DNA of 36,607 nucleotides from Sulfurospirillum sp. Its GTDB lineage: Bacteria; Campylobacterota; Campylobacteria; Campylobacterales; Sulfurospirillaceae. The stretch's first letter is position 1; each line of letters starts with the position of its first letter. The translations under genes were made by a program, and so were the position numbers. The DNA is taken from positions 1 through 36,607 of the forward strand of contig JADGDR010000017.1 of the NCBI GenBank assembly GCA_016744795.1, given 5' to 3'. Positions 3,607 to 23,412 of the stretch are shown one piece after another. The notes beneath the pieces were generated by a model. The model ran no database searches, had not been told where the DNA came from, and saw only the letters and a list, made by a program, of their open reading frames with translations.

Positions 3607-4374
3607 TTATTTAAGTCTATTATTTATAAATCTAACAGCTAAAAATATAAAAATTGAAATTATTATCATTATAGCAGCAACAGGAGCTGAATAAGCAAGT
3701 CCATAACTTGTAAATCTATCATAAATAAGAACAGGTGCCACCATAGGATGGTATGCCAACATAATCACAGCACCAAATTCACCAAGACCTCTTCCCCACA
3801 TCATTAATGCACCATTTATGATGTCTTTTCTTGAATTGGGAATTGAAATTCTCAAAAATACTTGCATTGGATTTGCACCAAGTGTTCGTGCAACCTTTTC
3901 CAGTTTTATATCTACTTTTTTAAAACCCTCTTTTGCTCCATTTATTAAAAATGTTGATGAAAGAAACATCATAGCAACCATAATACCCATATCAGTATCT
4001 ACAAAAGTAATTCCAATTGACTCAAATGCTTCAGAGATTGTTCCTCTTCCAAAAATCATAAGCAATGCTATACCAGCAGCAGTATGAGGTATCATAATAG
4101 GTATATCAATCATAGCTTCAATAAGCGAACGCCCAAAAAAGTTATATCTCGCGATAATATACGCTAAAGGAAGTCCCGTAACAAGTACAAAACACATAGA
4201 CCAAAGAGATACTTTCATAGTTAAATATATAGAACTTATAACATCTTTTTGTTTAAGAGTTTCAAGTAACAACGTCAAATCATTACCAAGTATCATATTA
4301 AAAAGTGGAACCGATAAGAACAAAAGTACAATAGTAGCTAAAAATATTAACCCATATAAAAACCAATTTTTCAT
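3607..4374 (-). CDS. tupB: Tungstate (molybdate) ABC transporter permease, TupB/WtpB-like
   Basis: A 255-residue inner-membrane permease with about six hydrophobic segments. The cytoplasmic coupling loop near residues 155-205 (ARTLGANPMQVFLRISIPNSR...GLGEFGAVIML) carries the EAA-type pattern of binding-protein-dependent permeases of the ModB/WtpB/TupB group. Third gene of a tupA-tupC-tupB operon; its ATG overlaps the tupC TGA by 4 nt. It forms the channel for oxyanion import energised by TupC. Tungstate rather than molybdate is inferred from the binding protein and from proximity to formate dehydrogenase, whose family in this phylum often uses W or Mo. Confidence 0.87.
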   Translation of the reverse strand: MKNWFLYGLIFLATIVLLFLSVPLFNMILGNDLTLLLETLKQKDVISSIYLTMKVSLWSMCFVLVTGLPLAYIIARYNFFGRSLIEAMIDIPIMIPHTAAGIALLMIFGRGTISEAFESIGITFVDTDMGIMVAMMFLSSTFLINGAKEGFKKVDIKLEKVARTLGANPMQVFLRISIPNSRKDIINGALMMWGRGLGEFGAVIMLAYHPMVAPVLIYDRFTSYGLAYSAPVAAIMIIISIFIFLAVRFINNRLK

Positions 4375-5351
4375 AAGTAACTCACATCCTTTTTATCAAA
4401 TCCTATAAATATGCTCTCTCCACGATCAGCATAACAACCCATGTAATCACGTTTGAGTAACTTTGCAAAAAATTGTTCTTCCCCAACTTTAACAAATATT
4501 TTATAATGATCAATAATTCCCATGCACTCTTCAAGTTTTCCTTCAAAAACATAGTCATTTTTTAGCTCATCTTTTGATATATGTATTGTATTTGGATCCA
4601 CTGAAAAAAGTCTACCGCTATCCTCATTCAACATTGAACTTGGAAGTATATTTTTAAATCCTAAAAACTTAGCCACTTCTAGATTCTCTGGGTTATTTAA
4701 AACATCACTTGCTGTACCTATTTGTCTAATCTGTCCATTCATAACTATGGCAATTCTATCAGCTAAATAACTTGCTTCTCGAAAATTATGTGTTACATGT
4801 ATAGTTGTAAGATTATATTTTCTATGAATATCTTTTAAAAACTTCATAATAGAGTTTCTAAAAGTTGGGTCAATCGCACTAAGAGGTTCATCAAGTAAAA
4901 GAATCTTTGGCTTAGAAAAAAGAGCTCTTGCAATAGCAACTCTTTGTCTCTCTCCACCTGAAAGATTGTCTATCTCTCTATTAAGCAAAGGCTCAAGTCC
5001 TAAAAAGTCAGCCAAATCATGAAGAGTCTCTTCAGGATTCTCTATTTGTTTGTACCTACCTGAAAACATTATATTTTCTCTTACATTTAGATTTGGAAAC
5101 AGTGCAAAATCTTGATATACAAACCCTACATCTCTATTTTCTGGACTAAGTTCAGATATATCTTTGCCCTCAAAATTTATCTTTCCATCGATCGAGTTAA
5201 ACCCTGCAATCGACTCTAACAATAACGTTTTTCCACTTCCACTTTGCCCAAGGAGAACAAAATATTCCCCTTGGTTTACTTTGAAGTTTATATTGTCTAG
5301 TTTGAAATCTCCCAATTTATATGAAAGATTTTCTACTTCAAATAATTTCAC
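4371..5351 (-). CDS. tupC: Tungstate (molybdate) ABC transporter ATPase, TupC/WtpC-like
   Basis: A 326-residue ABC ATPase. Walker A GQSGSGKT at 35-42, Q-loop near 80 (VYQDFALFP), signature LSGGERQ at 130-136, Walker B ILLLDEP at 150-156, and an H-loop His in IHVTHNF. A C-terminal extension of about 90 residues after 235 could be a small regulatory TOBE-like domain, as in WtpC/ModC; I see it only as a beta-rich tail. The start is GTG at 5351, 9 nt after tupA and preceded by AAAGG; the alternative later ATGs would remove Walker A. It hydrolyses ATP to drive oxyanion import through TupB. Confidence 0.9.
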   Translation of the reverse strand: MKLFEVENLSYKLGDFKLDNINFKVNQGEYFVLLGQSGSGKTLLLESIAGFNSIDGKINFEGKDISELSPENRDVGFVYQDFALFPNLNVRENIMFSGRYKQIENPEETLHDLADFLGLEPLLNREIDNLSGGERQRVAIARALFSKPKILLLDEPLSAIDPTFRNSIMKFLKDIHRKYNLTTIHVTHNFREASYLADRIAIVMNGQIRQIGTASDVLNNPENLEVAKFLGFKNILPSSMLNEDSGRLFSVDPNTIHISKDELKNDYVFEGKLEECMGIIDHYKIFVKVGEEQFFAKLLKRDYMGCYADRGESIFIGFDKKDVSYL

Positions 5352-5360
5352 TTATTACCT

Positions 5361-6308
5361 TTATTTGCCAAGTATACTAGCATCACCAGTGATTACTGGA
5401 GGGTTAATAACGCCTTGTCCATTTTTCATCATGATAGCTTGTCCTTCAGCAGAAAGTACAAAGTTTACAAAAAGTACAGCACCTTTTTTATTAACTGGTG
5501 ATTTTCCATTTTGTGCAACTGTAATACCATAAACCATTGGTCCACCTTTTTTAGTTATCCAAGTTCCTGGTTTTTTACCATTAATTTTAAATGTAACTTT
5601 TTTATAATCATTTGCAAGTTTATTGCTCTTTAAAGATACAGCTTCTGGAAGTGTTATGTATTTTAAACCATGTTGCTCTGCAACTGATTTATAGATAAAA
5701 AGATAATCATACATTCCAGCTTCAATAAGTCCAAGAAGATCAGTCTCTTTTGGTCTAACAATTATTTTTGAAGTATCTTCTTCTCCACCAGTATAACTAT
5801 CACCATAACCAAATAGTTTTTTGAAAAAATCTGGTTGTTTATAATAATCTTCTGCAAGTTGAGTAACAAGCATTGAACGGTAACCACAAGGATCCATATT
5901 TGGATTAGAATGTCCTACTTTTACTCCATCTCTTAAAAAGATTTCAGTCCAGTTTTGTGCATTGATTTCACCTGCATATTTTGATTTTGCAGTGTATGCT
6001 AATGCCATCTCATTTGTAGCAAATCTTGCATTAAATTTTGCATTCTTTGGTACCATTAAATTGTCAATTACTTTATAATCAGCACTTGCCATAACGTCTG
6101 CTGGTTTACCAATATCTGTTATTTTTCTAGCACAAGCTCTACTTCCTGCTGCTTCTCTTTTTACATCATACTGAGGATATTTTGCCTCAAATACTTTTTC
6201 AATTTCTCCAAATGGAACTGCTAAACTACCTGCGTGATATATAATTATATTCTCTTTTGCAAAACCTAATGTTGCTACTAACCCTAGTGCTAATATAGCT
6301 CTTTTCAT
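5361..6308 (-). CDS. tupA: Tungstate/molybdate-binding periplasmic protein, WtpA-like
   Basis: A 315-residue periplasmic binding protein with a cleavable signal (MKRAILALGLVATLGFAKE). The mature start HAGSLAVPF, then EAAGSRACARKITDIGKPADVMASADY, closely follows the WtpA family (tungstate/molybdate-binding proteins first described in archaea), whose Ser and Asp/Glu residues bind the oxyanion. GYRSMLV and LFIYKSVAEQHGL are further family segments. It captures tungstate (possibly also molybdate) for TupBC. A strong ribosome binding site (AAGGAG) is present, and the promoter overlaps operator copy 2. I use the tup symbol for the operon, although wtpA would fit the binding protein equally well. 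Metal preference cannot be decided from sequence. Confidence 0.88.
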   Translation of the reverse strand: MKRAILALGLVATLGFAKENIIIYHAGSLAVPFGEIEKVFEAKYPQYDVKREAAGSRACARKITDIGKPADVMASADYKVIDNLMVPKNAKFNARFATNEMALAYTAKSKYAGEINAQNWTEIFLRDGVKVGHSNPNMDPCGYRSMLVTQLAEDYYKQPDFFKKLFGYGDSYTGGEEDTSKIIVRPKETDLLGLIEAGMYDYLFIYKSVAEQHGLKYITLPEAVSLKSNKLANDYKKVTFKINGKKPGTWITKKGGPMVYGITVAQNGKSPVNKKGAVLFVNFVLSAEGQAIMMKNGQGVINPPVITGDASILGK

Positions 6309-7134: not shown

Positions 7135-7918
7135 TTATTCTCCTTGGATTACGATAAATATTCATCTTCTCTCCTCTTACAAAACCAATAAGAGTTAAAC
7201 CAAATTTATCTGCTATATTGACTCCTCTACAAGTTGAGGCTGTTCTTGAAGCTAGTATTGGTATTTGATGCATTACTGCTTTTGCTACCATTTCAGAACT
7301 AAGTCTTCCACTTACCATCAAAAAACACTTTGTTACATCAATCCCTGCAAGCCTTGCTTTTCCAATTGCCTTATCTATAGTATTGTGTTGAGCAATATCT
7401 TCACCTATAAAATAAGTCTCTTCATCAAAATATACTTTTGCAGTATGAACACACCCAGTTTGCTCATATAATGGACACTGAGTATAGAACTTACCCATCT
7501 CTTCAAAAAGAAGATTTGCATCTATACTAAAATCGTCATTCATAACAGCAGCATCAATGGCTATCTTTGATATCTGAGTGCTAATTCCTCTACCACATCC
7601 ACTTACTATAACACCTTCTAAATCTAATCTATCTATATTTGCTTCAATAACTTTTGCATCTATATGAACTTGAAATGTTTTAGTATCTACGTCAATAAGC
7701 TCTATTTTTGTTATCTCTTTTACATCTTCAATAATATCTTCACTCATAAGATAACCAACAGCCAACTCTTCAAGATCAACAGGAACTGCCATCAATGCAC
7801 CTACATTTTTCCCATTCACTATTATCTCTAATTTTATTTCACGGATTACAGTGTCTTCCATACTAAATTTTTCACCACATTTTACTTTAGTAGTCTCTAT
7901 TGTAAATATTTGATCCAT
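7127..7918 (-). CDS. fdhD: Formate dehydrogenase accessory sulfurtransferase FdhD
   Basis: 263 residues. FdhD moves sulfur from a cysteine desulfurase to the bis-MGD cofactor of formate dehydrogenase, a step required for activity. Family segments seen: EELAVGYLMSEDII, VSGCGRG, IGEDIAQHNTIDKAIGKA, SGRLSSEMV and ASRTASTCRGVNIA near the C-terminus. E. coli FdhD uses a CxxC loop (C121/C124). Here the matching segment has one Cys (C108 in SGCGRG), so sulfur relay must use a single Cys, as in some other family members. Own promoter with operator copy 3; followed by the ModE-like gene with an 8-nt overlap. It is separated from the fdh structural operon by a terminator-like hairpin. Confidence 0.93.
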   Translation of the reverse strand: MDQIFTIETTKVKCGEKFSMEDTVIREIKLEIIVNGKNVGALMAVPVDLEELAVGYLMSEDIIEDVKEITKIELIDVDTKTFQVHIDAKVIEANIDRLDLEGVIVSGCGRGISTQISKIAIDAAVMNDDFSIDANLLFEEMGKFYTQCPLYEQTGCVHTAKVYFDEETYFIGEDIAQHNTIDKAIGKARLAGIDVTKCFLMVSGRLSSEMVAKAVMHQIPILASRTASTCRGVNIADKFGLTLIGFVRGEKMNIYRNPRRINV

Positions 7919-8996: not shown

Positions 8997-9601
8997 TAAT
9001 TACCGTATGCTTTGCTCCAGCCATAAGGAGCAGATTGTACACCTTTGCCTTTAGAAGCTATGCGAGCACGATAAATATTTGCAACGTCCTGCGCATCACC
9101 AACGATAAGTGCCTTAGTAGAACACATTGCAGCACATACAGGAACTTTTCCTTCAGCTATTAGGTTTTGACCATAAAGCTCTCTCTCGTGAACTGAGTTA
9201 GTCTCTTGTGGACCACCAGCACACATAGTACATTTATCCATGGCACCTTTTGTACCAAATGCACCATCTCTTGGAAATTGAGGAGCTCCAAAAGGACAAG
9301 CATATAAACAATAACCACAACCAATACATATGTCTTTATCATGAAGAACAATTCCATCTTCTCTGATGTAAAAACAATCTACTGGGCATACTTGCTCACA
9401 TGGAGCATCCGTACAATGCATACAAGCTACTGAAGTAGAAAATTCTTTACCTTCAATACCTTCATTAAGAGTTACAACTTTTCTTCTGCTAACACCTGTT
9501 GGAAGCTCATGAGCCTCAGCACAAGCAACAGTACAACCGTCACACTCAATACATCTGTCATCATCACAATAAAATTTCATTCTTGACATTTCACTACTCA
9601 T
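8996..9601 (-). CDS. fdhB: Formate dehydrogenase iron-sulfur subunit FdhB
   Basis: 201 residues with four cysteine groups for four [4Fe-4S] clusters: CIECDGCTVAC (with C further on), CMHCTDAPCEQVCP, CIGCGYCLYACP, and CTMC pairing with CAAMC. This is the DmsB/FdnH-type layout. It relays electrons from FdhA to the FdhC haems on the periplasmic side. There is no TAT signal of its own, consistent with co-export bound to FdhA. It lies 10 nt after fdhA and overlaps fdhC by TAATG. GGTGAGAG precedes the ATG; an alternative start is Met5. Confidence 0.93.
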   Translation of the reverse strand: MSSEMSRMKFYCDDDRCIECDGCTVACAEAHELPTGVSRRKVVTLNEGIEGKEFSTSVACMHCTDAPCEQVCPVDCFYIREDGIVLHDKDICIGCGYCLYACPFGAPQFPRDGAFGTKGAMDKCTMCAGGPQETNSVHERELYGQNLIAEGKVPVCAAMCSTKALIVGDAQDVANIYRARIASKGKGVQSAPYGWSKAYGN

Positions 9602-9611
9602 CTCTCACCCC

Positions 9612-12443
9612 CTACGCTTTTTCTACGCGGCATAATCCGCCTTTAGTTTCAGGAATCTGAGTGACAATGTCATAACCATAGTTAGTAACAGTGTTTGCAC
9701 TCTCACCAACTGCATATGGTTTAGTTCCCTCTGGATACTTATGAGATAAATCTTCACCTTGAAAGTGTCCAGCATAGTGAAATGGAAGAAATACTCTATC
9801 TTCAGGAACACTAAATGAAAACTTAGCTTTAACCTTAATTTTAGTACCTTCTGGAGAATGAACCCACATCATATCGCCATTTCTGATTCCATGGTTTGCA
9901 GCAAGTCCAGGGTTAATATCACAGAACATTTCAGGAGTAAGTGCTGCAAGATACTTAGAGGCTCTATTTTCCATACCTGCACCATTTAGATTTACAAGTC
10001 TACCTGTAACTAAGTTAATTGGAAACTCTTTAGACCAATCTTTTTCAGTCTGCTTAGAAATGTACTTAGTATCAACTCTATAGTGATTTGCTTTATCTTT
10101 ATAAGATGGATACTTCTTAGCAAGATCTTGACGAGGAGAGTGAATCGGCTCTCTATGCATTGGAATTTGATCAGGAAATGTCCAAACTTTTGCTCTAGCT
10201 TTTGCATTACCATAAGGGGCTATTCCCGCTTCCATACATTTGTTAGCAATTATATGAGAAGTATCAACTTTCCAGTTTTTACCAATTCTCTTTTTCTCAT
10301 CAGTAGTTAATTTAATGCCAAGAACCTTTTCAATATTCTTAGCAGTAATTTCTGGATAACCATCTTTATTTGCAGAATCTTTTGGTGCTGAACCAGCTCC
10401 TGCAAGTAAATCTTGTCCGTCATGCTCAAGACCAAATCTATTTCTAAAACCCATACCACCTTCTTTGACAGTTCTATGAATATTATAAAGAATTGGACTA
10501 CCACCATGAGTTTCTGTCCAACATGGCCAAGGAAGTCCATAGTACTCACCTTTCATAGGCCCATGTCCTCTTAGGCTAACTTCATCAAACATATGCCAGT
10601 TGTCAGTATGATTTTTAAGTCTCTTAGAAGTCCAACCAGTTAATCCAATTGTTTTAATGATTCTTGCAATTTCATCTGTTGCATCTTCAGGAAATTTATA
10701 AGATGTTTTATTTTCCTTTATAAGCATACCTTTTGTATACTCTTTATGGAAACCTAAACGCTTAGAAAACTCAATCATAATTTCATGATCTGGTTTACTC
10801 TCATATAAAGGCTCAACAACTTGATATCTCCACTGAGCTGAACGGTTTGTTGCAGTAACTGAACCACTAGTCTCAAACTGTGTTGCAGCTGGTAAAATAA
10901 ATACATCATCTTGCTTGTCAGTCAAAATTGCTGCTTCATTTACAAATGGATCAGCAAGTACGATTAACTCTAAATTATCAAGAGCCTCTTTTACCTTCGC
11001 TTGTTGAGCAATAGAAGTAATACCATTACCCATAACAAATATAGCTTTTAGGTTAGTTCCACCATTATGAATTTTATCTTCACCTGGTTTACCTGCTAAA
11101 ACACCGGCATACCAACGTGCTAAAGTAAAACCTTTTGCACTCATCATCTTTTTATCTTTAAATCTTCCAGCTAACCACTCATAGTCAACACCCCAAGATT
11201 TTGCGAAGTATTTCCATGACCCAGCACTAAGACCATAATAACCAGGAAGAGTGTGTGAAAGACAGCACATGTCAGTAGCACCCTGAACATTGTCATGACC
11301 ACGAAGAATATTGGTTCCACCACCCTCTTCACCCATATTTCCAAGGCAAAGTTGTAAAATCGGAGCCAGACGTGTATTTGATGAACCAATTGAGTGTTGA
11401 GTAAGACCCATAGCCCAAATTAATGTTCCAGGAGTTGACTTAGCGTAAACTCTAGTGATTTGCATTAACTTTTCAACTGAAATACCTGTAACATCAGATA
11501 CCTTCTCTGGTGTCCATTTTGCAGCTTCAACTCTTATATCTTCTATCCCATAAACACGATCACTAATAAACTCTTTATCTTCCCAACCATTTTTAAAGAT
11601 AATATTAAGCATTCCATACATAAAAGGAATATCAGTACCTGGTCTAATTTGTGCATAAATATCTGCTTTTGCAGCTGTTTTTGTAAATCTAGGATCTACA
11701 ACAATAATTTGTGCATTATTTCTCTCTTTAGCTTTCAAAAAATGCTGAAAACCAACTGGGTGATTTACTGCAGGATTTGCCCCAAAGATGATAATTGCTT
11801 TTGCATTTTGGATATCTCCAAGAGAATTTGTCATAGCACCATAACCCCATGTATTCGCCACACCGGCGACTGTTGCACTATGTCAGATTCTTGCTTGATG
11901 ATCTATATTATTTGTTCCATAAAACGCTGCAAATTTTCTAAAGTAATAAGCTTGTTCAGTACTCATTTTTGCAGAACCTAAAAAGATTGTCGAATCAGGT
12001 CCACTTTTTTCTCTTAAGCTCGTAAGTTTCTTAGAGATTCTAGTGAAAGCAGTCTCCCAACTGATACGCTTCCATTGACCACCCTCTTTAACCATCGGAT
12101 ACTTAAGCCTTACCTCTGATCTGACCATATCGATCATATCAGCACCTTTACAACAGTGTCCACCTAAACTTACTGGATGGTCTTGTGCTACCTCTTGTCT
12201 AACCCAAACACCATTTTGAACCTCGGCAGTAATACCACAACCAACTGAACATGCAGTACAAATGGTTCTTACTTTTTTGCTTCCAGGAAATGGGTTCTTA
12301 ACCTCATCTTGTGTTGCTGCTCTTGTTACGTTTCGACTTGCAAATGAACTAGTTGCACCAAAGGCTCCTGCAACTGCTGCCATTTTAAGAAACGACCTTC
12401 GACCTATTTTAGTCGCTAAAGCATTTTGAGTAGTATTTGTCAT
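9612..12443 (-). CDS. fdhA: Formate dehydrogenase catalytic subunit FdhA, selenoprotein (Sec187)
   Basis: One 943-residue selenoprotein read through an in-frame TGA at 11885-11883. It oxidises formate to CO2 at a bis-MGD Mo or W centre in the periplasm. The TAT signal has RR at 15-16 (GRRSFLKMAAVAG). A [4Fe-4S] motif lies at C62, C65, C69 and C97. Sec187 sits in DHQAR-I-U-HSATVAG, the exact counterpart of NQARV-U-HGPTVA of E. coli FdnG. Then come the MGD-binding segments (KAIIIFGANPAVNHPVG, GANPA-type loops) and a C-terminal molybdopterin dinucleotide domain (NLVTGRLV...ENRASKYLAALTPEMFCDINP). An automated caller would split it into 12443-11883 and 11861-9612. RBS GGAG is well spaced; 17 nt follow the TAT mini-protein gene. 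Export on TAT needs the upstream TorD-like chaperone. Confidence 0.96.
11855..11885 (-). promoter_or_regulatory. SECIS element and Sec codon of fdhA
   Basis: TGA at 11885-11883 is followed, 13 nt later, by a perfect 5-bp stem TCGCC (11869-11865) / GGCGA (11859-11855) with loop GGTGT. The loop starts exactly 18 nt after the TGA, the same as the GGUCU loop of the E. coli fdhF SECIS. This is the SelB-binding signal for UGA recoding. Confidence 0.85.
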
Positions 12444-12735: not shown

Positions 12736-13515
12736 CTAAAGGTCTCCTTCTTCTTCTTTTCCTGCAAATGATTCCTCAGGAATGTCACAAGCTTTCATCA
12801 CTGAGTCTGCTGATTTTGCTTCACGATTACGCTTTCTTCTTGCTGCTTCTTCATCACTTATGAATTCACAAGGCTCTTCTTTTTTAATCACTTTTTCTTT
12901 GCTAACTGGTTTATTTACATCAAAATAAAGTCTTTCAAACTCAATAAATGCATTTAAAACTACTGCTAAAGATTTATAAATATTTGATTTGTCATTTTCA
13001 TAAAGTGCCTCTATATACTCATCTATAAACTCATTGATTATCTCTTTAAAAAGACAATGTTGTAAAGTATCATATGACTTCTCACCCCTTATAACCAGTT
13101 CAATTAACTCATGCATAAAAGTTACTAAAAATCCTACACTATCTTCACTCTCTTTAAAGTTTTTTTCATCTCTTCTAATTTTTGTCTTTGCTAAAAAATT
13201 CTTTACTTCAAGTCTCTTTTTACCACTTTCTATTTGTTCATCATAAAATGAAGCTGTATCTCTTACTACATTTGTTGTGGGATTATGAAAAATATCATCA
13301 TACTCACTAACAAGATCTTTAACTCCTCCAACTTCTAAAAACTCCTTTATCTCTTTAAGAGCTTCTGCTGAGTTCTCATCCATAGGATTTGCTATCATCA
13401 CATCTAATGCTTCTTTTATGCCATCGAATCTATTTTTATCACTTGTAAAAACAAACATTTTGCTAAAAAAACCATAATATAATGATCTTGCTCCATTTAC
13501 TGCTTCTTTATTCAT
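12736..13515 (-). CDS. TorD/DmsD-family chaperone for FdhA
   Basis: A 259-residue soluble, helix-rich protein with no cofactor motif. The N-terminus (ARSLYYGFFSKMFVF) and middle (DLVSEYDDIFHNP, VGFLVTFMHELI, FIDEYIEALYE) match the pattern of TorD-like redox-enzyme maturation proteins that hold molybdoenzymes for cofactor insertion and guard the TAT signal. A charged tail of about 50 residues (KEKVIKKEEPCEF...ARRKRNREAKSAD) extends beyond the usual length of about 200. It overlaps the preceding iron-sulfur gene by ATGA and precedes the TAT mini-protein and fdhA, as in the C. jejuni fdh locus. Confidence 0.82.
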   Translation of the reverse strand: MNKEAVNGARSLYYGFFSKMFVFTSDKNRFDGIKEALDVMIANPMDENSAEALKEIKEFLEVGGVKDLVSEYDDIFHNPTTNVVRDTASFYDEQIESGKKRLEVKNFLAKTKIRRDEKNFKESEDSVGFLVTFMHELIELVIRGEKSYDTLQHCLFKEIINEFIDEYIEALYENDKSNIYKSLAVVLNAFIEFERLYFDVNKPVSKEKVIKKEEPCEFISDEEAARRKRNREAKSADSVMKACDIPEESFAGKEEEGDL

Positions 13516-15182
13516 GCATTAATCCTTTCATCCATATGCGCTTGTAACATAACTTTAGGTTTACAATCAGCACAACAATAAAGTGTTTTGATTCTAAGCT
13601 CATCATCTCCAAAAATTGGTTTCATAATTTGTGCTATTTTTTCTACCGATTTTACAGTAGCAAAGCCCACACCACACTCTATGCACTCAAATATATCATC
13701 TGTCGCTTTTACGTTTTGTTTAAAGTAGTCTGGATTTAGATTTATTTCATCTTTTATTACTGTAAGACAATTATCTTCAGGACATATCACTTCACAGTAG
13801 GTACAATTAGTACAGATTGAGGGATTAAATCTTAGGGTATTATCTTGCGGGTGAGCAGTTAATGCTCTTACATTACATGCTCCAACACAGCTTAGACACA
13901 AGGTACATGTATCTGTATTTATAGTTATATTTCCGTAGTGAACATGTTCACCTGTTTTTACAACTCCTAAATCATCTTCACCCACTAAATGAGATAAACG
14001 AGCCGAGAATATTTCACGTTTATTCAAGCCTTCTTCGTTTATGCCATACACGCACTCTTTAATTGGAATAATGTTTAAAATAGCTTTTTTAAGTTCATTT
14101 TCATCTTTACATGTAAAGATAGCTTGTTTTCCATATTTCTTTTCAAAAATTTCATTAATGATGCGTATTACATCACCAGTTCCTTTAGAAATAAAATCTG
14201 TATAAAATATTACAGGGTTTCCGCTTGTTTGAAGAAGTGTCATAAAATGAGCTTCATGCAAGAACTTTTCACCTTCTATTGCTAGAGGTAAAACATCTTT
14301 TGGTAAGTCTACATGTAAAGACTCTAATTCCATTTTTCTTGGTATTATAAGAGCTACACTCTCTTTATAAAATGAACTCATCTCTTTAAATGCAATTCTT
14401 GGCATTTGGGAGTAGTCTAATGCACCTGATGGACACACACTTATACAGCCTCCACAACTATGGCAATCTATATGGGAAAAGTTTAGGTGCTTAGTTTCAT
14501 CTACTTTTAAAATTGCTACTGTTGGACAAACTTCTGCACATTTTCCACATATCTCTTCATTTCTTTCATGATATTGACAGATATTTGAATCATATTTTAT
14601 AAAGTTTTTATACTTGTATGAACCTTTGTTTGTTAGTGCTGAATTCAGAGCAACTTCTAAGCCTATTATATTAGGATCATAAGTACCACTTTGTTTCATT
14701 GCAAATTGCGGTGCATCATACCAAATTACTTGATCAGTTTCTAAGTCAATTAACTCTTCTTCTTTTCTGATAGTGAATATCAGTTTACCAATATGTCCAT
14801 TTACATCTACTATGTTAATTGGGTTTAATACTATACATGTAAACTCTAAATCTATTAACTCTTGTTTTAGTTCCTCTTCGTCTTTGTTTGATACTATTAA
14901 TAGTTTATTTCCTACTGGTTCTTCATAATCCATATCTTGTGCTAAATCATAGGCAGATACCCTGATATCGTATAGTTTTTTTATATTTATTATTCTTTTG
15001 CTTATATCATCTTGCGTATTTTTTATATAAAAGTTTATCTCTGGCGCATATATTTGAGCATTCTTATTTTCTACATTTGATACTATATATTCTTCTTCAT
15101 CTAATTTATTTAGCACTTCTATACACTCATCTAATGGGTATTCTAATGCTGATTGGTTACAATATATATACTCTTTATTCAT
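13512..15182 (-). CDS. Multi-cluster 4Fe-4S ferredoxin-like protein, first gene of the fdh operon
   Basis: A 556-residue soluble protein without a signal peptide, so cytoplasmic. After an N-terminal region of about 200 residues without motifs come cysteine groups: CGKCAEVCP and CHSCGGCISVCP near 215-250, then CTLCLSCVGAC and CTNCTYCEVICP near 430-470, and CIECG with CCADC near the C-terminus. Two ferredoxin pairs flank a Rossmann-like middle (ALIIPRKMELESL, NPVIFYTDFISKG). Similar proteins are found at the head of Campylobacterota fdh operons. It could be an electron carrier or an assembly factor linking cytosolic reductant with Fdh maturation; its role is not known to me. Its stop overlaps the chaperone start (ATGA). 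Confidence 0.75.
   Translation of the reverse strand: MNKEYIYCNQSALEYPLDECIEVLNKLDEEEYIVSNVENKNAQIYAPEINFYIKNTQDDISKRIINIKKLYDIRVSAYDLAQDMDYEEPVGNKLLIVSNKDEEELKQELIDLEFTCIVLNPINIVDVNGHIGKLIFTIRKEEELIDLETDQVIWYDAPQFAMKQSGTYDPNIIGLEVALNSALTNKGSYKYKNFIKYDSNICQYHERNEEICGKCAEVCPTVAILKVDETKHLNFSHIDCHSCGGCISVCPSGALDYSQMPRIAFKEMSSFYKESVALIIPRKMELESLHVDLPKDVLPLAIEGEKFLHEAHFMTLLQTSGNPVIFYTDFISKGTGDVIRIINEIFEKKYGKQAIFTCKDENELKKAILNIIPIKECVYGINEEGLNKREIFSARLSHLVGEDDLGVVKTGEHVHYGNITINTDTCTLCLSCVGACNVRALTAHPQDNTLRFNPSICTNCTYCEVICPEDNCLTVIKDEINLNPDYFKQNVKATDDIFECIECGVGFATVKSVEKIAQIMKPIFGDDELRIKTLYCCADCKPKVMLQAHMDERINA
14106..14117. repeat. TTTACATGTAAA palindrome
   Basis: Exact copy inside the ferredoxin-like gene, part of an 18-nt perfect palindrome ATCTTTACATGTAAAGAT (14103-14120). 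Confidence 0.85.
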
Positions 15183-15386
15183 AATCTACATCCCGTATTG
15201 GTCAAATCTTGTTTACCATATTGTAGATTTATTTAGTTTAAACTACTCTTAAAATAAATTAGCAAACTGACTAGCTATAGTATTTTAAAGGAGGTTTTTC
15301 ACCTATAATTTATTGATAAAAAATGGTAAAGAGAACTTTTCTACTTAGATCTTTTTTGTCACATTACCTATATTTCGTTATTATAG

Positions 15387-15409
15387 AAATATGCAAAATT
15401 TGCATATTT
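15387..15409. promoter_or_regulatory. Palindromic operator candidate, copy 4 (fdh / sensor operon)
   Basis: AAATATGCA, AAATT, TGCATATTT: the best copy, 9-5-9 with perfect arms. On the minus strand it is followed after one base by TATAAT, so it would fill the -35 region of a promoter reading towards the fdh operon with a leader of about 190 nt. That suits an activator or a repressor. It also lies about 165 nt upstream of the plus-strand promoter of the sensor operon. Confidence 0.65.
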
Positions 15410-15572
15410 ATGCTTTTTAAACTCAATAAATCATTTCTACTCTATTTAAAAAGTTCTACACCTAATTTACTAATAAATAATTTTTTACTAATTGTTACAT
15501 TTTTTCCTCTTTATATGCTCTTTTACATGTATATATTCATGTCTGTAAATTTTTATTGACCATAATTTATTG

Positions 15573-15578
15573 TATAAT
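15573..15578 (+). promoter_or_regulatory. Predicted -10 box of the sensor-selAB operon
   Basis: TATAAT 27 nt before the TTG start at 15605, with ribosome binding site AAGGAG at 15594-15599. Confidence 0.5.
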
Positions 15579-15604: not shown

Positions 15605-16759
15605 TTGGTAAAGAGATTTTTTCTATTCTTTTTTTTACTCACTATGTTAATAGCTATTTTTATGTCTGTTTATTTATATAAAATTGATAATAAAAACACT
15701 ATATTACTAGGAACTTCTCTTCCTCTAACAGGAATCAACAAAGAGTTAGGAAAAGAGGTTATAGAAGGAGCCAATACATACTTTAGTCATGTTAATGCAA
15801 AGGGTGGCATAAATGGTAAATATATCAACCTTATCTTTTATGATGACAAGTATGAACCACAAAACACTCTAATAAACATAAATACTCTAATAAACAAAGA
15901 CAAAGTCTTTTCTCTTTTTAGTTTTGTTGGAACTCCAACAACAAAAAAAGTACTTCCTATAATTATAGATAAAAACATACCTTTTGTAGCTGCTTACACG
16001 GGAGCATCTTTTTTAAGAGATACTAATTTTGATAATATTGTCAATTTTAGAAACTCTTATGCTCAAGAGATTGAAGGAATAATCAACTTTTTATATAAAA
16101 CAAAACAGATTACTAAATTTGCTATTTTTTATCAAAATGATGATTATGGAGAAGAAGGATACATATCAACAATAGAAGCTCTAAAAAAAAGAGATCTAAC
16201 GTTAATAAGTGAGGGGACCTATAAAAGAAATACTCTGTCCATTAGACATGCTTTACACGAAATAAAATCAACAAAACCAGAAGCTATTATAATAATTGGT
16301 GCATACAAACCAAGTGCACGATTTATCAAAAAAGCAAGAGAGTGTTGTTTTAGAGATGTTATCTTTGCACCTATCTCTTTTGTAAATGCAAATGCCTTAA
16401 TCAATGAACTAAATGGAGATGGTGAGAATATATTATTTTCTCAAACAGTACCATCATATGATGATGACTCTTTGAAAGTTGCAAAAGAGTATTTACACCT
16501 TTTAAGTTTTTACTACCCTAAGAGCAAACCAAGTTATGCTTCTTTTGAATCATTCCTTGCAGCTAAAGTGGTTGTTAATGCTCTTAAAAATATAAAAGGA
16601 CCACTAACATACAAGAGTTTTTTATCAAACCTTAAAAATATACCAGCAGATGTATTAGGAGAAATTCCAATAAAATATCAACACACACAACTACTTAATA
16701 CTACATACCTTTCTTCCTACAATAATGGTAAATTTGAGTCAATTAAAATGGTAAAGTAA
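15605..16759 (+). CDS. Periplasmic ligand-binding protein (LivK/Peripla_BP_6 type), likely sensor partner
   Basis: 384 residues. An N-terminal hydrophobic segment (residues 5-26, FFLFFFLLTMLIAIFM) acts as signal or membrane anchor. A type I periplasmic-binding-protein fold follows: LLGTSLPLTGINKELGKEVIEGANTYF, NAKGGINGKYINLIFYDDKYEP, then FAIFYQNDDYGEEGY. It starts at TTG with a well-placed AAGGAG. No ABC permease or ATPase gene is near. Instead a histidine kinase gene follows after 1 nt and a response regulator after that, so it probably hands a ligand signal to the kinase, as TorT does with TorS. The ligand is unknown; divergence from the fdh operon suggests a formate- or respiration-related cue (inference). 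Confidence 0.82.
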   Translation: MVKRFFLFFFLLTMLIAIFMSVYLYKIDNKNTILLGTSLPLTGINKELGKEVIEGANTYFSHVNAKGGINGKYINLIFYDDKYEPQNTLININTLINKDKVFSLFSFVGTPTTKKVLPIIIDKNIPFVAAYTGASFLRDTNFDNIVNFRNSYAQEIEGIINFLYKTKQITKFAIFYQNDDYGEEGYISTIEALKKRDLTLISEGTYKRNTLSIRHALHEIKSTKPEAIIIIGAYKPSARFIKKARECCFRDVIFAPISFVNANALINELNGDGENILFSQTVPSYDDDSLKVAKEYLHLLSFYYPKSKPSYASFESFLAAKVVVNALKNIKGPLTYKSFLSNLKNIPADVLGEIPIKYQHTQLLNTTYLSSYNNGKFESIKMVK

Positions 16760-16760
16760 A

Positions 16761-18368
16761 ATGGGATTTTATAATTTGATAAACAATCTTTTGGACCGTG
16801 TAAAATTTTCAAATAAAACAAAAATTCTTATAGCAATTATCTCCTTTAGCATGATGATTATTGGTTTTTTGATGATGATTTCTATCTTTGCACTAAAATT
16901 CGACTACGAAACTCTATACCAAAAAAGGACTATTCCTCAAGTGGGACTTGAAGAGATAAAAGATATCTATACGGTAAATATCTACGATACTCTATATGAT
17001 ATTAAAGAGAATAATATAGATGTTGACAACGCAGGTGAAGTGATCTCTTTAGCAAAACAGATAATCAAAGTACAGTGGCTCAACTATCAAGATTCTGTAA
17101 ACTATAAAATAGGAGGACTACCAGAATTTGCAAGCAACTGGCTCAACTTCTTTTTGTTAAGCGAAAGTCTCCAACAAAAAAACTACTATCAAGAAGGTGT
17201 TGTCTCAAAAGTTGAAGAGAAAATGAAAAGAATTGACACTCAAAGCAATAAAATCATGAAATTGTTAAAGCAAGGTAAATCTTTTAAAGCAATTACTGCT
17301 ATCAACGAAATATTTTTAGAAATAAACTCCATCAATATATACCTTTCTAGTCTAATAACTTCTCATCTAAAAAAAGCTGTTGCAGAAAAAAACAGGAATG
17401 ATAAGATGTTTAGAACAAGTATTTACATGTTGTTTTTTCTTATCGGATTAATCTTTTTTCTTAGTATTATTATCTCTTTAATCCTAATCAACAACTTTAA
17501 AGAGTTACACGATTCTCTAGAAGTCAAAATTAATGATAAAACAAAAGAGTTAAGATCTCTAAATAATTCCCTCGAACGTCGCATAAAAGCGGAAGTAGAA
17601 AACAACCGTAAAAAAGATCAAATAATGTTTGCTCAAGCAAGACTTGCAAGTCTAGGAGAAATGCTTCAAAACATTGCACATCAATGGAGACAACCTCTTG
17701 GGGCACTTGTAATGATAATCCAAAGTTTCCAATCAAAATTTTTATCTGGCAAGTTAAACGAAGAATTCATAGAATCACGAGTAGATGATGCAGGTGTATT
17801 AGCTAAAAACATGTCTGATACACTTGAAGATTTTAGAACATTTTTTGACCCAAATAAATCTCATAAAAGTTTTAGTATAAAAAAAGTTATAGATAAATCT
17901 CTTGATTTGACAAAATACCAACTAGAAAAAGATGATATTAATGTCTTTTTTACCATGAACGAAGATATAAATATATACGGTTTTGAAAACGAACTTACTC
18001 ATGTAATTTTAAACCTGCTCAATAACTCAAAAGATGCTCTAATAGAAAAAAATATCTCTCAAAAACAGATAAGAATTATTGTAAAACCAACACACAATAG
18101 TGTAGTTATCAATGTTATAGACAATGCAGGAGGCATAAAAAGTGATATAATGGGAAAAGTTTTTGACCCATATTTTACAACAAAACATAAAAGTGTGGGA
18201 ACAGGGATAGGTCTTTATATGTCTAAACAGATGGTTGAAAAACATATGAATGGAAATATAGACTATAAAAACATGAAGCATAAAATGGGCAAAAGTGAAC
18301 TATGCAACTGTGCAATGTTCACTATAGAAATACCAAAAGAGCTAAGGGCTAATGATGACAAAACGTGA
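16761..18368 (+). CDS. Membrane sensor histidine kinase of a three-component system
   Basis: 535 residues. Two membrane helices (about 22-46 and 221-244) bracket a helical periplasmic domain of about 175 residues. A coiled coil (about 247-290) follows, then the H-box ENIAHQWRQPL-like segment QNIAHQWRQP with His307, N-box LLNNSKDAL (around 419-427), G1 DNAGG (454-458) and G2 GTGIGL (480-485). All catalytic motifs are intact. The HAHQWRQPL-type H-box is common in Campylobacterota kinases. It starts 1 nt after the binding-protein gene and its end overlaps the regulator gene by 17 nt, so the three are produced together. It should phosphorylate the regulator encoded next. Confidence 0.92.
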   Translation: MGFYNLINNLLDRVKFSNKTKILIAIISFSMMIIGFLMMISIFALKFDYETLYQKRTIPQVGLEEIKDIYTVNIYDTLYDIKENNIDVDNAGEVISLAKQIIKVQWLNYQDSVNYKIGGLPEFASNWLNFFLLSESLQQKNYYQEGVVSKVEEKMKRIDTQSNKIMKLLKQGKSFKAITAINEIFLEINSINIYLSSLITSHLKKAVAEKNRNDKMFRTSIYMLFFLIGLIFFLSIIISLILINNFKELHDSLEVKINDKTKELRSLNNSLERRIKAEVENNRKKDQIMFAQARLASLGEMLQNIAHQWRQPLGALVMIIQSFQSKFLSGKLNEEFIESRVDDAGVLAKNMSDTLEDFRTFFDPNKSHKSFSIKKVIDKSLDLTKYQLEKDDINVFFTMNEDINIYGFENELTHVILNLLNNSKDALIEKNISQKQIRIIVKPTHNSVVINVIDNAGGIKSDIMGKVFDPYFTTKHKSVGTGIGLYMSKQMVEKHMNGNIDYKNMKHKMGKSELCNCAMFTIEIPKELRANDDKT

Positions 18369-19023
18369 TTTTGATTTATTGAACGGATTTAATATCCTCT
18401 ACCTAGAAGATGAAGCTGATTTGTTAAAACACACAACAACTGTTTTAGAGGATTTTGCAAAAAATATATTTGCAGTACAAAGCTGTGGTGAAGCCTTAAA
18501 AATTCTAGAGAATAACCATGTAGACGTTATTATCTCAGATATACTTCTAAAAAATGAAAATGGCATAGAATTTTTGAGACACTTAAAAGATGAACTGGAT
18601 ATCAACATACCTGCTATCTTGACAACCGCACATACAGATACGGGACACCTTTTGGATGCCATCAAACTAAAAGTGGAAAACTACATTGTAAAACCAATCA
18701 ATATAAAAGAGCTTCTAAATGCTCTTCACGATGTACTCATGCCAAAAATACAACAAAGAGAGATAGCAAGATCATACAATATCATCAAAACTATCTCCGC
18801 AGTAACCGATGGAAAGCAGGTTGATTTAATTCGTTTTATAATAAAAAATTTAGATGATGAAAATACCTTAAACTACTCCTATACTGATATTATGGAAAAA
18901 GTAGAGGTAAGCAAACCTACAGTTATAAAACTTTTCAAATCACTAAGCGACCAAGGAATACTAACAAAAATACAAAATGGTAAATATCATTTTGATGAAA
19001 CTAAATTACCTATACCGGAGTAA
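18352..19023 (+). CDS. Response regulator with receiver and C-terminal helix-turn-helix domain
   Basis: 223 residues. Receiver domain 13-125: acidic pair ED (19-20), phospho-acceptor Asp63 in VIISDILLKNENG, Thr in LTTAHT, Lys in VKPI. The output region (about 140-215; YTDIMEKVEVSKPTVIKLFKSLSDQGIL) is a winged helix of the Crp/MarR-like kind, not OmpR or NarL. Two ATGs lie at 18352 and 18355. It overlaps the kinase gene and is followed after 3 nt by selA. Its targets may be the divergent fdh operon and its own operon; no binding site can be assigned with confidence. Confidence 0.9.
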   Translation: MMTKRDFDLLNGFNILYLEDEADLLKHTTTVLEDFAKNIFAVQSCGEALKILENNHVDVIISDILLKNENGIEFLRHLKDELDINIPAILTTAHTDTGHLLDAIKLKVENYIVKPINIKELLNALHDVLMPKIQQREIARSYNIIKTISAVTDGKQVDLIRFIIKNLDDENTLNYSYTDIMEKVEVSKPTVIKLFKSLSDQGILTKIQNGKYHFDETKLPIPE

Positions 19024-19026
19024 ATT

Positions 19027-20361
19027 TTGAACCTTCTAAGAAAACTACCAAAAATTGATAAAATTGTAATAAATCCACTTTTCAAAGGATTAAACCCATC
19101 TCGTTTAGCCCAAATTGCTAGAGAAAAGATAGATAAGCTAAGAGCAAATATACTTGCTAAAAATATAGAAAACTTTGATAATGAAGATTTACTAAAAGAT
19201 ATAAAATATAGCTACGATAAACTTTTTGAGCCATCTTTAAAACCTCTCATAAATGCAACAGGTGTAATCTTACACACAAATATGGGAAGAAGTTTGATAA
19301 GCGAACACATACTAGGTGAATCTTCAAAAATCATCACAAACTACTCAAACTTAGAATATAATCAAGAAAAAGGGTGTCGTGGTGAGAGATATGAACACGT
19401 TAGCAAACACCTCAAAAACCTTTTACATGTAGAAGATGTTTTAGTAGTGAATAACAATGCAAGTGCAGTTTTTTTAATACTAAATACCTTTGCTAAAAAC
19501 AAAGAAGTCATTGTATCTCGTGGAGAATTGGTTGAAATTGGTGGTAGTTTTCGTATACCTGAAGTAATGAGCCAAAGTGGAGCTTTACTTCATGAGGTAG
19601 GAGCAACAAACAAAACAAACAAAAATGACTATAAAAATGCCATTAATGAAAACTCAGCAATGCTAATGAAAGTACATCAATCTAATTTTAGTATTGAAGG
19701 TTTTAGTGACGATACAAACTATGCAGATATAAAAACCCTTTGTGTAGATAACAATTTAATTGATTATTATGACTTAGGAAGTGGCTACATACCAGAGCTC
19801 CCTTATAACCTAGGAAAAAATGAACCCTCTTTACAAACGATTTTAAAAGACGATCCATCACTAATAAGCTTTAGTGGAGATAAGCTTTTTGGAAGTGTTC
19901 AAGCTGGAATAATTGCTGGTAAAAAAGAGCTAATAGACAAACTCAAAAAAAATCAACTACTTCGCATGTTAAGAGTAGATAAAATCACACTTAGCATACT
20001 AGAAGAAACCATCAAAGCTTACCTAAAAGAGGACTACAAATCTATCCCAACCTTATGGATGCTTTTTCAAAGTGAAGAGTCTTTACATATAAGGGTAAGT
20101 AACATACAAAAAGAAGTTGGTGAGTCTACATGTAACGTTATAAAAAGTAAAACTGTTATGGGTGGAGGCACTCTACCAAACAGAGAATTCCCAACAGTAG
20201 CTCTACATGTAAAGGGAAAAGCAACCACATTAGAAAGAAGTTTTAGAAAAAACAATATCATAGGACGCATAGAAAATGATATGTTTTTAATAGACTTTAG
20301 AAGTATACTGCCAGAGTTTGAAAAACAAATAATAAATACAATAAAAGAGATAATTAAATGA
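19027..20361 (+). CDS. selA: L-seryl-tRNA(Sec) selenium transferase SelA
   Basis: A 444-residue PLP enzyme that converts Ser-tRNA(Sec) to Sec-tRNA(Sec) with selenophosphate from SelD. Family segments: INATGVILHTNMGRSLIS (76-92), YSNLEYNQEKGCRGERYEH, VNNNASAVFL, and SFSGDKLFGSVQAGII with the PLP lysine K286. Length is normal for SelA. The start is TTG at 19027, only 3 nt after the regulator stop; no ATG is available nearby and the N-terminus (LLRKLPKIDKIV) matches the family. The transcript is shared with the sensor genes upstream and with selB, which overlaps by ATGA. Confidence 0.96.
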   Translation: MNLLRKLPKIDKIVINPLFKGLNPSRLAQIAREKIDKLRANILAKNIENFDNEDLLKDIKYSYDKLFEPSLKPLINATGVILHTNMGRSLISEHILGESSKIITNYSNLEYNQEKGCRGERYEHVSKHLKNLLHVEDVLVVNNNASAVFLILNTFAKNKEVIVSRGELVEIGGSFRIPEVMSQSGALLHEVGATNKTNKNDYKNAINENSAMLMKVHQSNFSIEGFSDDTNYADIKTLCVDNNLIDYYDLGSGYIPELPYNLGKNEPSLQTILKDDPSLISFSGDKLFGSVQAGIIAGKKELIDKLKKNQLLRMLRVDKITLSILEETIKAYLKEDYKSIPTLWMLFQSEESLHIRVSNIQKEVGESTCNVIKSKTVMGGGTLPNREFPTVALHVKGKATTLERSFRKNNIIGRIENDMFLIDFRSILPEFEKQIINTIKEIIK

Positions 20362-22190
20362 AACACATAATAATAGGAACTGCAGGTCATGTTGACCATG
20401 GAAAAACGGCTTTAATAGAAGCTTTAACAGGTTTTGCAGGAGATACACTAGAAGAAGAGAAAAAAAGAGGAATTACAATTAACCTAAGTTTTTCTAACTT
20501 ACAAAATGAAAATACAAATGTAGCTTTTATTGATGTTCCTGGACATGAAAAGCTTTTAAAAAATATGATTGCAGGTGCTTTTGGATTTGATGCTTGTATG
20601 GTTGTGATTGATGCAAATGAAGGAGTTATGCCCCAAACTAACGAGCATTTGGAGATTTTAAATCTTTTACATGTAAAGAGTATAATCATTGCTTTAACTA
20701 AGAGTGACTTAGTAAGCAAAGATAAGATAACACAAAGAGAACAAGAGATAAAAGAGTACTTTAATACATTTTCTCATCTTGAACTAAAATCAATTATTCC
20801 TGTTAGTATATATGAGCCAGATTCAATCCAAAACTTAAGAGAGGAACTTTTTTCTATACCTATCATAGAAAAACCAAGCAATGGACTTTTTAGATACTAC
20901 ATTGACCGCTCTTTTTCACTCGCTGGGGTTGGAACTGTTGTAACTGGAACAGTTCTTGATGGAGCTATTAAAGTAGGTGAAAAAGTTTTTGCACCAGAAC
21001 TAGGAAAAGAAATTGTAGTAAAAAACTTACAAGTTCATGAAAAAGATGAAGAAGTAGCACTAAGTTCCCAAAGAACAGCGATAAACCTACAAAATGCAAA
21101 AGTAGCTTTAAAAAAAGGAACTTTACTTTGTAAAAAAGGCTTTATTCGTGGTTTTGAAAGTGTTGATGTTTGGGTTGAGGGAATCTCTAATCAAAAAGTA
21201 AAACATAACTCACAAGTAATTCTATTTATAGGAACTAAACAAATAGAAACAAAAGTCCTTTTATATGGAAATGATACTGAAACATCAAGTGGTTTTGCAA
21301 AACTACAATTTGATAAAAAAATCTTTTTAGTTCATAATGAACCATTTATCATTTGTTCTAGTGGTAGAACTATTGGTGGAGGGCGAATACTTAACCCAAT
21401 TAATGACCCAATAAAGAAAAAAATAAAAATGACACTCTTAGAAGCTTTAAAAAATGATGATTTTAAAGCTGCATTTGAAATACTTGTTAATGCACATAAA
21501 AGAGGTTTTGGTATCATCTCATCAAATCAAAGATTTGGATTAAATCACAATGAAGCTCTCAAAATTGCTCATGAAATACAAAATATTTTTGTAGATGTAA
21601 AAGGTTTAGTTCTTTACCCAATAGATATCAAAAATGAATTAAAAGATAAAATAAATGCTATCTATAAAAAGAATGAATATGCCCTACTCTCTGCAAACTC
21701 TCTTGCACTTAAAATCAAATGGGCAAGCGAAACTCTTTTAAATGATGTTTTAAAAGATATTGTAAAAAGTGGAAATCTTGAATTTAAAGATGGAATCTAT
21801 AAAAATCCAAATATAGATGTAAATAATATAGATAAGGTAATAGAAGAAAAAATGCACTCTATACTTCAAGATGAAGGGTTTATGCCAACAGCACCATATA
21901 ACATCTATGATGAACTAGACATCGATAGAAAGATGGGAGATGATGCCCTTAAACGTCTTACAAGAGCTAAAAAAGTAGTTCGTTTAGCACACAATCTTTT
22001 TGTTACAAGTGAAAATCTAAGTACTATAATTACACGTCTTCGTGAGATTATGAAAACAAATGGTTTTGTAGATATAGCCTCTTTTCGAGAACACTACGAC
22101 ATGAGTAGAAAATATCTAGTGGCTTATCTTGATCATTTAGATATGTATGATGATGTTAAAAAAGATGGTATGAAAAGGGTTATGCTTTAG
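20358..22190 (+). CDS. selB: Selenocysteine-specific elongation factor SelB
   Basis: 610 residues. SelB brings Sec-tRNA to ribosomes at UGA codons by binding the SECIS hairpin. The N-terminal GTPase has G1 GHVDHGKT (10-17), the G2 region RGITINLSF, G3 DVPGH (59-63) and G4 TKSD (114-117). EF-Tu-like beta domains follow to about 340, then winged-helix domains to the end (about 370-610) that bind the SECIS RNA. It overlaps selA by 4 nt. It ends convergently with the EAL-HDOD gene, the two coding ends overlapping by 11 nt inside a hairpin. Targets in this window are fdhA and selD. Confidence 0.96.
   Translation: MKHIIIGTAGHVDHGKTALIEALTGFAGDTLEEEKKRGITINLSFSNLQNENTNVAFIDVPGHEKLLKNMIAGAFGFDACMVVIDANEGVMPQTNEHLEILNLLHVKSIIIALTKSDLVSKDKITQREQEIKEYFNTFSHLELKSIIPVSIYEPDSIQNLREELFSIPIIEKPSNGLFRYYIDRSFSLAGVGTVVTGTVLDGAIKVGEKVFAPELGKEIVVKNLQVHEKDEEVALSSQRTAINLQNAKVALKKGTLLCKKGFIRGFESVDVWVEGISNQKVKHNSQVILFIGTKQIETKVLLYGNDTETSSGFAKLQFDKKIFLVHNEPFIICSSGRTIGGGRILNPINDPIKKKIKMTLLEALKNDDFKAAFEILVNAHKRGFGIISSNQRFGLNHNEALKIAHEIQNIFVDVKGLVLYPIDIKNELKDKINAIYKKNEYALLSANSLALKIKWASETLLNDVLKDIVKSGNLEFKDGIYKNPNIDVNNIDKVIEEKMHSILQDEGFMPTAPYNIYDELDIDRKMGDDALKRLTRAKKVVRLAHNLFVTSENLSTIITRLREIMKTNGFVDIASFREHYDMSRKYLVAYLDHLDMYDDVKKDGMKRVML
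20666..20677. repeat. TTTACATGTAAA palindrome
   Basis: Exact copy inside selB, where it encodes part of LLHVKS. Confidence 0.85.
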
Positions 22191-22196
22191 CATAAC
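22179..22196. terminator. Hairpin at the overlapping ends of selB and the EAL-HDOD gene
   Basis: GTTATGC-TTTA-GCATAAC, a perfect 7-bp stem with a tetraloop that contains both stop codons. On the plus strand TCTTTTGT follows; on the minus strand CCCTTTTC follows. Likely a bidirectional terminator. Confidence 0.6.
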
Positions 22197-23412
22197 TCTT
22201 TTGTAAAATTTCACTAAGTTCAACATTACTTAGGTTAAATTCATCCAATATAGTATCTACCTTAACCATATCAAATTTTTCAATTGCAATAACCAAGTCT
22301 AAAAGTTTTCCTAACTCTCCATTTCTATTAAGTAATGCTTTTTTGACATTAATATCTACATTTATTTCATCTAAAATTATATTGATAGGGACACTCAAAA
22401 GAGCATCTACTAAAGATAAAATTCCAACAAAAGAGGCTTCATGACTATCATATTCTCTACTTTGTATCTTTTTAGCAAGTTCTGCCATAATTTTAGAGCG
22501 ATTCTGAGCAAGTTCTAGCATAGGATTTTTTGTCATCTTAACTTCTCCATCCATGGACTTAGAAAAGGCTATCAAAAGTAACCACTGTTTGAGTGGTTTT
22601 TTACCAAGCATCATGACAACTTGTAGTACCGATTTTACATCTTGCTGAAGTCCCATATAACTAGAATTTATAAATCTCAAAAGTTGTATAGTTAATTCTA
22701 CTTCCATCTCTAATTCAGTTACTACTTGATTCATATCCACAGTATCGTTATCTAAAAGATTAATCAACTGAAATATCTTTTTATATGCTGGGTCAATCGA
22801 CTTTTTTTGTACAATGCTAGGTTTTGCAAAAAAATAACCTTGAAAAAGTTCACATCCATAGGCTTTATATTTTTCAAAATCTTCTTTTGTTTCCACTTTT
22901 TTTGCTAACATTTTAAAATTATATTTTTTAAAATTTTCTAGATGTTTTTCTAAAGTATTCTCTTTTATTAAAGATAGATCAAGTTTCAATATATCAATAT
23001 ATGCAAATATAGGAGTAAATCTTTCCATAAAAGAATCACTACAGTGAGCATTGTCAAGTGCCAAACTGTAACCCATATCTTTTAGTTCTTTTATACGCTT
23101 TATCATTTTTTAGCATATGATAGTATTTTCTAGTATTTCCAAAACAAAACGCTCTTTAGGAATACTAAATACAATAGGGTCTAAAAGGAATTCTTGGTCA
23201 ATATTTATAAAGGCTAAATTATCATCAACTAAAGTGTGTATACCAAAATGATTTAATGCATTTACTAAAACTTTTGCTGTTGCTAAAAGCTCATCTTCAA
23301 AAACGGTCTTAAGTGTACCACAATCTAATGCCCTAAAAAGTAATTCATATCCATGAATTTCATTGTTTAAATCAACAATAGTTTGTTTTGCTATATAATA
23401 ATCTTGTCCCAT
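22180..23412 (-). pseudogene. EAL-HDOD signalling protein interrupted by an in-frame TAA
   Basis: Two same-frame open segments, 23412-23110 (100 residues) and 23106-22180 (308 residues), are separated only by TAA AAA. Joined they give the usual roughly 410-residue EAL-HDOD protein. The EAL part starts IAKQTIVDLNNEIHGYELLFRA and continues FVLEILENTIIC-stop-KMIKRIKELKDMGYSLALDN, the stop falling inside a conserved helix. The EAL motif is degenerate (ELL), so c-di-GMP hydrolysis is unlikely even in an intact form. The HDOD part (about 200-400) has the family pattern (FINSSYMG, VVMMLGKKPLKQWLLLIAFS). Either a recent nonsense mutation, a base error, or two separately translated pieces; the second has an ATG but no strong ribosome binding site. 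Codon use shows no decay, so any break is recent. Confidence 0.75.

Follow-up and report, generated by a model that had tools for sequence, protein, structure and literature searches.

A three-component sensor, encoded divergently from the formate dehydrogenase (fdh) operon in a member of Sulfurospirillaceae, probably controls fdh through the operator GGTAAA-N6-TTTACC, with a regulon that reaches the selenocysteine (Sec) machinery across Campylobacterota. Gene order and its conservation, the putative operator, the co-occurrence of sensor and operator, as well as the appearance of the operator at sel genes, are the elements of this reading that the sequence itself shows, with a comparison that took in hundreds of related bacteria. 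The window described here, 36,607 bp long, is the whole of contig C1; the genome, of 2.68 Mb, is placed near Sulfurospirillum arcachonense, with L071 and L075 as its nearest named relatives.

Organization of the sensor–sel and fdh operons

The window carries every Sec gene but selC, the tRNA-Sec gene, which is located on another contig (C10:12010-12103). With selA, selB, selC, selD, and a UGA-containing selenoprotein, Sec-fdhA, the Sec-decoding trait of the genome is complete. The genes of a periplasmic binding protein (SBP), a histidine kinase (HK), and a response regulator (RR), a three-component arrangement in which the gene of the binding protein adjoins the other two, are followed by selA and selB, and all five run divergent from the Sec fdh operon (Table 1). 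The start codon of SBP is TTG, preceded by AAGGAG. The in-frame TGA of FdhA is found at the expected place and a TAT signal is present in the fdh operon, marking the latter as a genuine Sec-fdh.

Table 1. Features of the window discussed in the text.
Feature	Position	Strand	Remarks
selD, selenoprotein	ATG 2493, in-frame TGA 2446-2448, stop 1462	-	
yedF-like gene	2493-3083	-	
Tungstate/molybdate uptake (Wtp-type): WtpA, ABC ATPase, permease	3607..6308	-	
ModE-domain protein	6397-7134	-	
FdhD	7127-7918	-	
FdhC	8082-8996	-	from operon position and conserved synteny
FdhB	8996-9601	-	from operon position and conserved synteny
FdhA, selenoprotein	9612..12443	-	in-frame TGA at 11883-11885
TorD-like chaperone	12736..13515	-	
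Fer556, 556-aa 4Fe-4S protein	13512..15182	-	first gene of the fdh operon
Putative operator palindrome GGTCAAATCTTGTTTACC (GGTAAA-N6-TTTACC)	15200..15217	.	over the inferred fdh start site
fdh -10 box TACAAT (inferred)	15220..15225	-	
TTTAAG-N5-TTTAAA box in the fdh promoter	15237..15253	-	matches the published HP1043 consensus (PMC8345958)
One-mismatch operator match near the SBP promoter	15544..15561	.	private to the source genome, not conserved in sisters
TATAAT	15573..15578	+	likely -10 of the SBP-HK-RR-selA-selB operon
SBP, periplasmic binding protein (Peripla_BP_6)	15605..16759	+	ORF and Pfam 4.8e-41; N-terminal membrane anchor
HK, sensor histidine kinase	16761..18368	+	Pfam HATPase_c; HQWRQPLG phospho-acceptor box
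RR, response regulator	18352..19023	+	Pfam Response_reg; RepL-type winged-helix output
selA, selenocysteine synthase	19027..20361	+	Pfam SelA 3e-132
selB, Sec-specific elongation factor	20358..22190	+	Pfam SelB

According to the ORF coordinates, the spacings between the five genes are +1, -17, +3, and -4 nt, exactly as given in the first-pass annotation, and its view that these genes form one operon placed back to back with fdh is upheld by the spacings, by the gene order kept in relatives, and by a + strand that shows no terminator-like site from 15605 to 22190. Promoter-like sites are present at the shuffled level (65 found vs 59.4 expected), and this RpoD-type promoter scan was set aside, its result being at chance level. 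Downstream of selB, an EAL-HDOD gene (22180-23412) is read as two ORFs of 308 and 100 aa positioned 3 nt apart, which possibly reflects a frameshift or an assembly error.

All 20 Sulfurospirillaceae loci fetched share, within the reach of their contigs, the order Fer556, SBP, HK, RR, selA, with or without selB, in which Fer556 is divergent from the remaining genes; in a few loci, gaps of up to ~0.8 kb separate the RR, selA, and selB genes. Conservation of the neighborhood, proposed earlier as a check, thus indicates that the arrangement is not due to chance.

A palindrome that accompanies the sensor at fdh promoters

The palindrome GGTCAAATCTTGTTTACC is the sole perfect match to GGTMAA-N6-TTKACC in the 2.68-Mb genome, and family genomes with the locus mostly have one such site at it, with a background of ~1 elsewhere. 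The palindrome is present at the fdh promoter in 51/53 sensor-bearing loci (31/31 family-like and 20/22 other), a count that leaves out the six f16 loci, none of which has the palindrome (0/6) though the sensor is present; the f16 regulator is ~50% identical. It was found in 0/24 genomes lacking the sensor, for which 24 regions were scanned whole, and in none of the 16 sensor-lacking genomes with mapped Fer556 starts. The association of the palindrome with the sensor gives a Fisher p = 6e-18, a value that overstates the case, since the genomes are related and not independent. A contrast within one family points in the same direction: two genomes with the sensor, a Cys-FdhA, and no detected selA (G357 and G267) keep the palindrome, whereas in G216, with a Sec-FdhA and selAB and lacking the sensor, it was not found in 19.9 kb.

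Promoters that contain the palindrome also have an adjacent TTTAAG-N5-TTTAAG box and a -10 box of the TACAAT type. This repeat was considered as the site of RR and set aside, since it equals the HP1043 consensus (PMC8345958). In the fdh promoters of Arcobacteraceae, two palindromes located ~53-55 bp apart flank the promoter.

In turn, the sensor-selAB promoter in the family of the window has its TATAAT box, and no conserved operator was found there, so that control of selAB in these bacteria may proceed by co-transcription only. Perfect palindromes located within the SBP coding region (f16 genomes and G109) were not taken as operators, as they encode a conserved V-K-x-I-L-P stretch. Additionally, a segment of ~240 bp between Fer556 and SBP (15258-15500) is absent from the sister genomes. 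At about 15323, it includes the start of SBP for a second time, in decayed form (ATGGTAAAGAGAACTTTT), and looks as it would after a partial tandem duplication.

Probable extension of the regulon to selenocysteine genes

The wider comparison comprised 80 named loci found with an SBP profile. In the loci of Arcobacteraceae, as well as in the Sulfurimonas-like and Sulfurovum-like ones, SBP-HK-RR stays divergent from Fer556-TorD-FdhA, and selAB is often not adjacent (L105, L106, L115, L116, L128, L129, L137, L141). The sensor is also found beside the Cys-FdhA of G357 and G267. Since it remains divergent from fdh in the absence of selAB, and even with Cys-FdhA, fdh is its core partner. Conversely, in G216 and in Campylobacter (G283, G358), all of which lack the sensor, selA is the immediate divergent neighbor of Fer556, and the Fer556-selAB neighborhood therefore exists independently of the sensor.

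In Arcobacteraceae, where the parts of the system are located in separate operons, each of these carries the operator. G206, G166, and G377 have it at two or three fdh isozyme operons, of both the Sec and the Cys type; in G042 it is found at a remote fdh operon, and G022 probably has another such operon. Some of the extra fdh operons are on other contigs. In some loci of the Arcobacteraceae type, a Cys-FdhA lies under the GGTAAA-N6-TTTACC operator (L208 656-3496, L109, L115, L287, L288), and some of the genomes with such a locus also carry a Sec-FdhA operon beside it.

The operator is also found at selD of Arcobacteraceae, and a composite operator is located 201-480 bp upstream of selA. A whole-genome search of 44 genomes with the composite pattern yielded 111 distinct sites. 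Upstream of Fer556, 24 genomes have a total of 24 sites at a distance of up to 200 bp; upstream of selA, 12 genomes have 12 sites at up to 520 bp. Together with 29 further sites in the fdh-sel cluster, the cluster total is 65/111, and the remaining 46 sites are elsewhere. In seven Campylobacter genomes, the same pattern occurs twice, and neither site is near fdh or sel. The composite operators at fdh and sel constitute the main evidence that the Sec genes belong to the fdh regulon.

Whether selC is included is less clear-cut. A palindrome overlapping the ATG of selA in Arcobacteraceae, located also 47-71 bp upstream of tRNA-Sec, was not counted as evidence for selA, half of it being coding (M-x-L-L). 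In the source genome, a near-palindrome, GGTAAGCTCTTCTTTACC (G000:C10:12134-12151), is found 31-48 bp upstream of tRNA-Sec, and similar ones lie 5' of tRNA-Sec in some relatives (L283, L286, L258, L262, L263); in most of genus g4, a palindrome at selC is absent. These sites are suggestive only, and selC may be a further operator target.

Other genes are also associated with operator-like sequences. An Arcobacteraceae operon carrying the operator encodes a TAT-exported transglutaminase-like protein, a MerT-like membrane protein, and an HMA (MerP-like) protein (L207 1730-4692, L213 6143-9113, L204 11854-13549); it is divergent from selD in L207 and L213, and possibly serves the uptake of selenium or a metal. 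In five Sulfurospirillaceae loci (L224, L225, L226, L228, L231), operator half-sites with different spacers are positioned 5' of a gene pair encoding a 2-hydroxyglutaryl-CoA dehydratase-like protein and a BcrAD-type activator (440 and 253 aa), possibly as another target or as a terminator hairpin.

It is unlikely, if still worth serious consideration, that the sensor regulates fdh only, with selA-selB carried along at constant expression and no regulated Sec capacity. Fer556 and selAB would then be old neighbors, between which the sensor was inserted, or from which it was lost elsewhere. The direct Fer556-selA divergence in sensor-free Campylobacter and G216, retention of the sensor beside Cys-FdhA where selA is undetected, and the family's SBP-selAB promoter with no conserved operator are all consistent with such a history; however, neighborhood alone does not predict that selA and selD of Arcobacteraceae should have composite operators of their own. 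The earlier proposal that sel genes are co-controlled with fdh is supported by relatives in which selA and selD carry the fdh operator; in the family of the window, selAB may be co-transcribed only.

An assignment of the palindrome to another transcription factor, with the sensor acting elsewhere, seems to us improbable. It would agree with the presence of the sensor and not of the palindrome in the f16 genomes (6/6), with the HP1043/CemR-like box in the promoters, and with the ModE-domain protein encoded in the fdh operon, but the palindrome follows the presence or absence of the sensor even inside one family, and the sensor-lacking G216, in which ModE-domain homologues are retained, does not have it. 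Even harder to accept is the proposal that SBP senses a selenium compound and that the system is a gauge matching Fdh to the selenium supply. Sec genes are indeed among the candidate targets, yedF and selD are present in the window, and Sec and Cys Fdh occur side by side under the operator in Arcobacteraceae, yet both sensor and operator persist in G357 and G267 with Cys-FdhA and no detected selA, which makes selenium sensing less likely.

The sensor, its candidate signal, and comparison with known systems

The AlphaFold2 model of SBP (pLDDT 91) has the fold of the LIV/amide receptors, with 4kv7 as the best fold match in the PDB and AmiC within the top 50. In proteins of the LivJ type, a Glu is the acidic residue that binds the α-amino group of the ligand. 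In the alignment with LivJ (4gnr), all members of the SBP family have Ser or Thr at this site, and the acidic residue typical of Leu/Ile/Val-binding proteins is thus missing in SBP; this substitution argues against an amino acid ligand, and nothing more. In HK, two transmembrane helices flank an all-helical periplasmic region. The phosphotransfer residues, His307 of HK (HQWRQPLG) and Asp63 of the RR receiver, are invariant in the alignments. The structure model of HK (pLDDT 75, pTM 0.41) has PDB matches that cover kinase cores only. In Pelagibius, the gene of an SBP homologue, 36-39% identical, precedes one for a chemoreceptor that has a TorS sensor domain (L134), a pairing that supports a role of the SBP family in signaling and not in transport. 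A paralogous SBP-HK-RR set is present in the source genome (G000:C22:67054-70481; L151 7046-10481), with HK 41% identical, an adjacent cyclophilin-type isomerase gene, and a divergent methyltransferase gene.

The proposed ligand is formate or a related small acid, with formate itself being a guess, and an amide may be considered as well. In S. multivorans, Fdh2 was called constitutive and is abundant on pyruvate, although its level is higher on formate (9.1-9.3 vs 8.0-8.9), and Fdh1 and Fdh3 were quantified only with formate and fumarate (PMC4585668). If Fdh2 is the sensor-linked enzyme, as we infer, these data fit a response to formate, with no proof of it. Of the initial suggestion that an external signal, possibly formate or an electron acceptor, raises both Fdh and Sec capacity, the sensor as a candidate regulator of fdh is retained, with formate or an electron acceptor as no more than a possible signal.

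According to the proposed mechanism, binding of a ligand in the periplasm by the membrane-anchored binding protein would alter the activity of the helical sensor kinase, and the winged-helix RR would in turn bind to the palindrome beside the TTTAAG-N5-TTTAAG promoter box. By position, the operator of the window, placed over the inferred fdh start, is repressor-like, whereas those at sel promoters, upstream of -35, are activator-like; control could thus be of either sign, and only co-regulation is put forward. The net effect of the signal would presumably be positive, raising Fdh together with the capacity to insert Sec into it. In Arcobacteraceae, selA and selD would be controlled directly through the fdh-type operator, while in Sulfurospirillaceae selA-selB would be coupled by co-transcription with the sensor; in the window, RR may act on fdh alone, with selAB supplied by the sensor operon. 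A broader version, in which one extracellular ligand sets the fdh isozymes and selA, selB, selD, and possibly selC through one operator across the phylum, we would place slightly short of an even chance.

Insertion of Sec is commonly regarded as housekeeping, and to our knowledge few bacterial transcriptional regulators of selA, selB, or selD are known or predicted, control by an outside signal being rarely known. A regulator with a defined operator, linking the genes for Sec insertion with the enzyme that is their main client, would allow testing whether UGA recoding follows demand, and, if the phylum-wide regulon is true, expansion of the genetic code would be an environmentally controlled trait. 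The system also offers a target for ligand screening and a candidate regulator of formate respiration in Campylobacterota, for the host-associated members of which a 2019 review noted little substrate-specific regulation (PMC6682613).

The open-access literature yielded no account of this sensor, its operator, or the regulon, which is weak evidence of absence; the nearest published ideas are the predicted LysR_Se (PMC5322559) and TorT/S/R. HP1043/HsrA/CemR, whose TTTAAG-N5-TTTAAG box is present in these fdh promoters, is an orphan global regulator that accounts for the -35 box and not for the palindrome (PMC8345958, PMC11334517). FdhTU of Campylobacter jejuni, from the same phylum, also links selenium handling to Fdh; these are post-transcriptional accessory proteins (cited in PMC6682613), whereas the system of the window is a candidate transcriptional sensor. 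LysR_Se, a predicted selenium regulator found beside selA/B/D, is similarly tied to Sec biosynthesis genes, and a related LysR-type regulator is reported to affect Sec and Cys isogenes (PMC5322559); LysR_Se is, however, one-component and intracellular, unlike the transmembrane three-component sensor described here, and its operator is different. TorT-TorS-TorR, which senses TMAO in E. coli, shares the combination of binding protein, kinase, and regulator that controls a respiratory molybdoenzyme. Unlike TorT, the binding protein of the window belongs to Peripla_BP_6; unlike TorS, its HK is not hybrid, with neither a TorS domain nor a receiver by Pfam and an HMM match to TorS that spans the kinase core only. 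The output domain of RR is RepL-like, with no Trans_reg_C match, whereas TorR is of the OmpR type, and the candidate targets here are fdh and the Sec genes.
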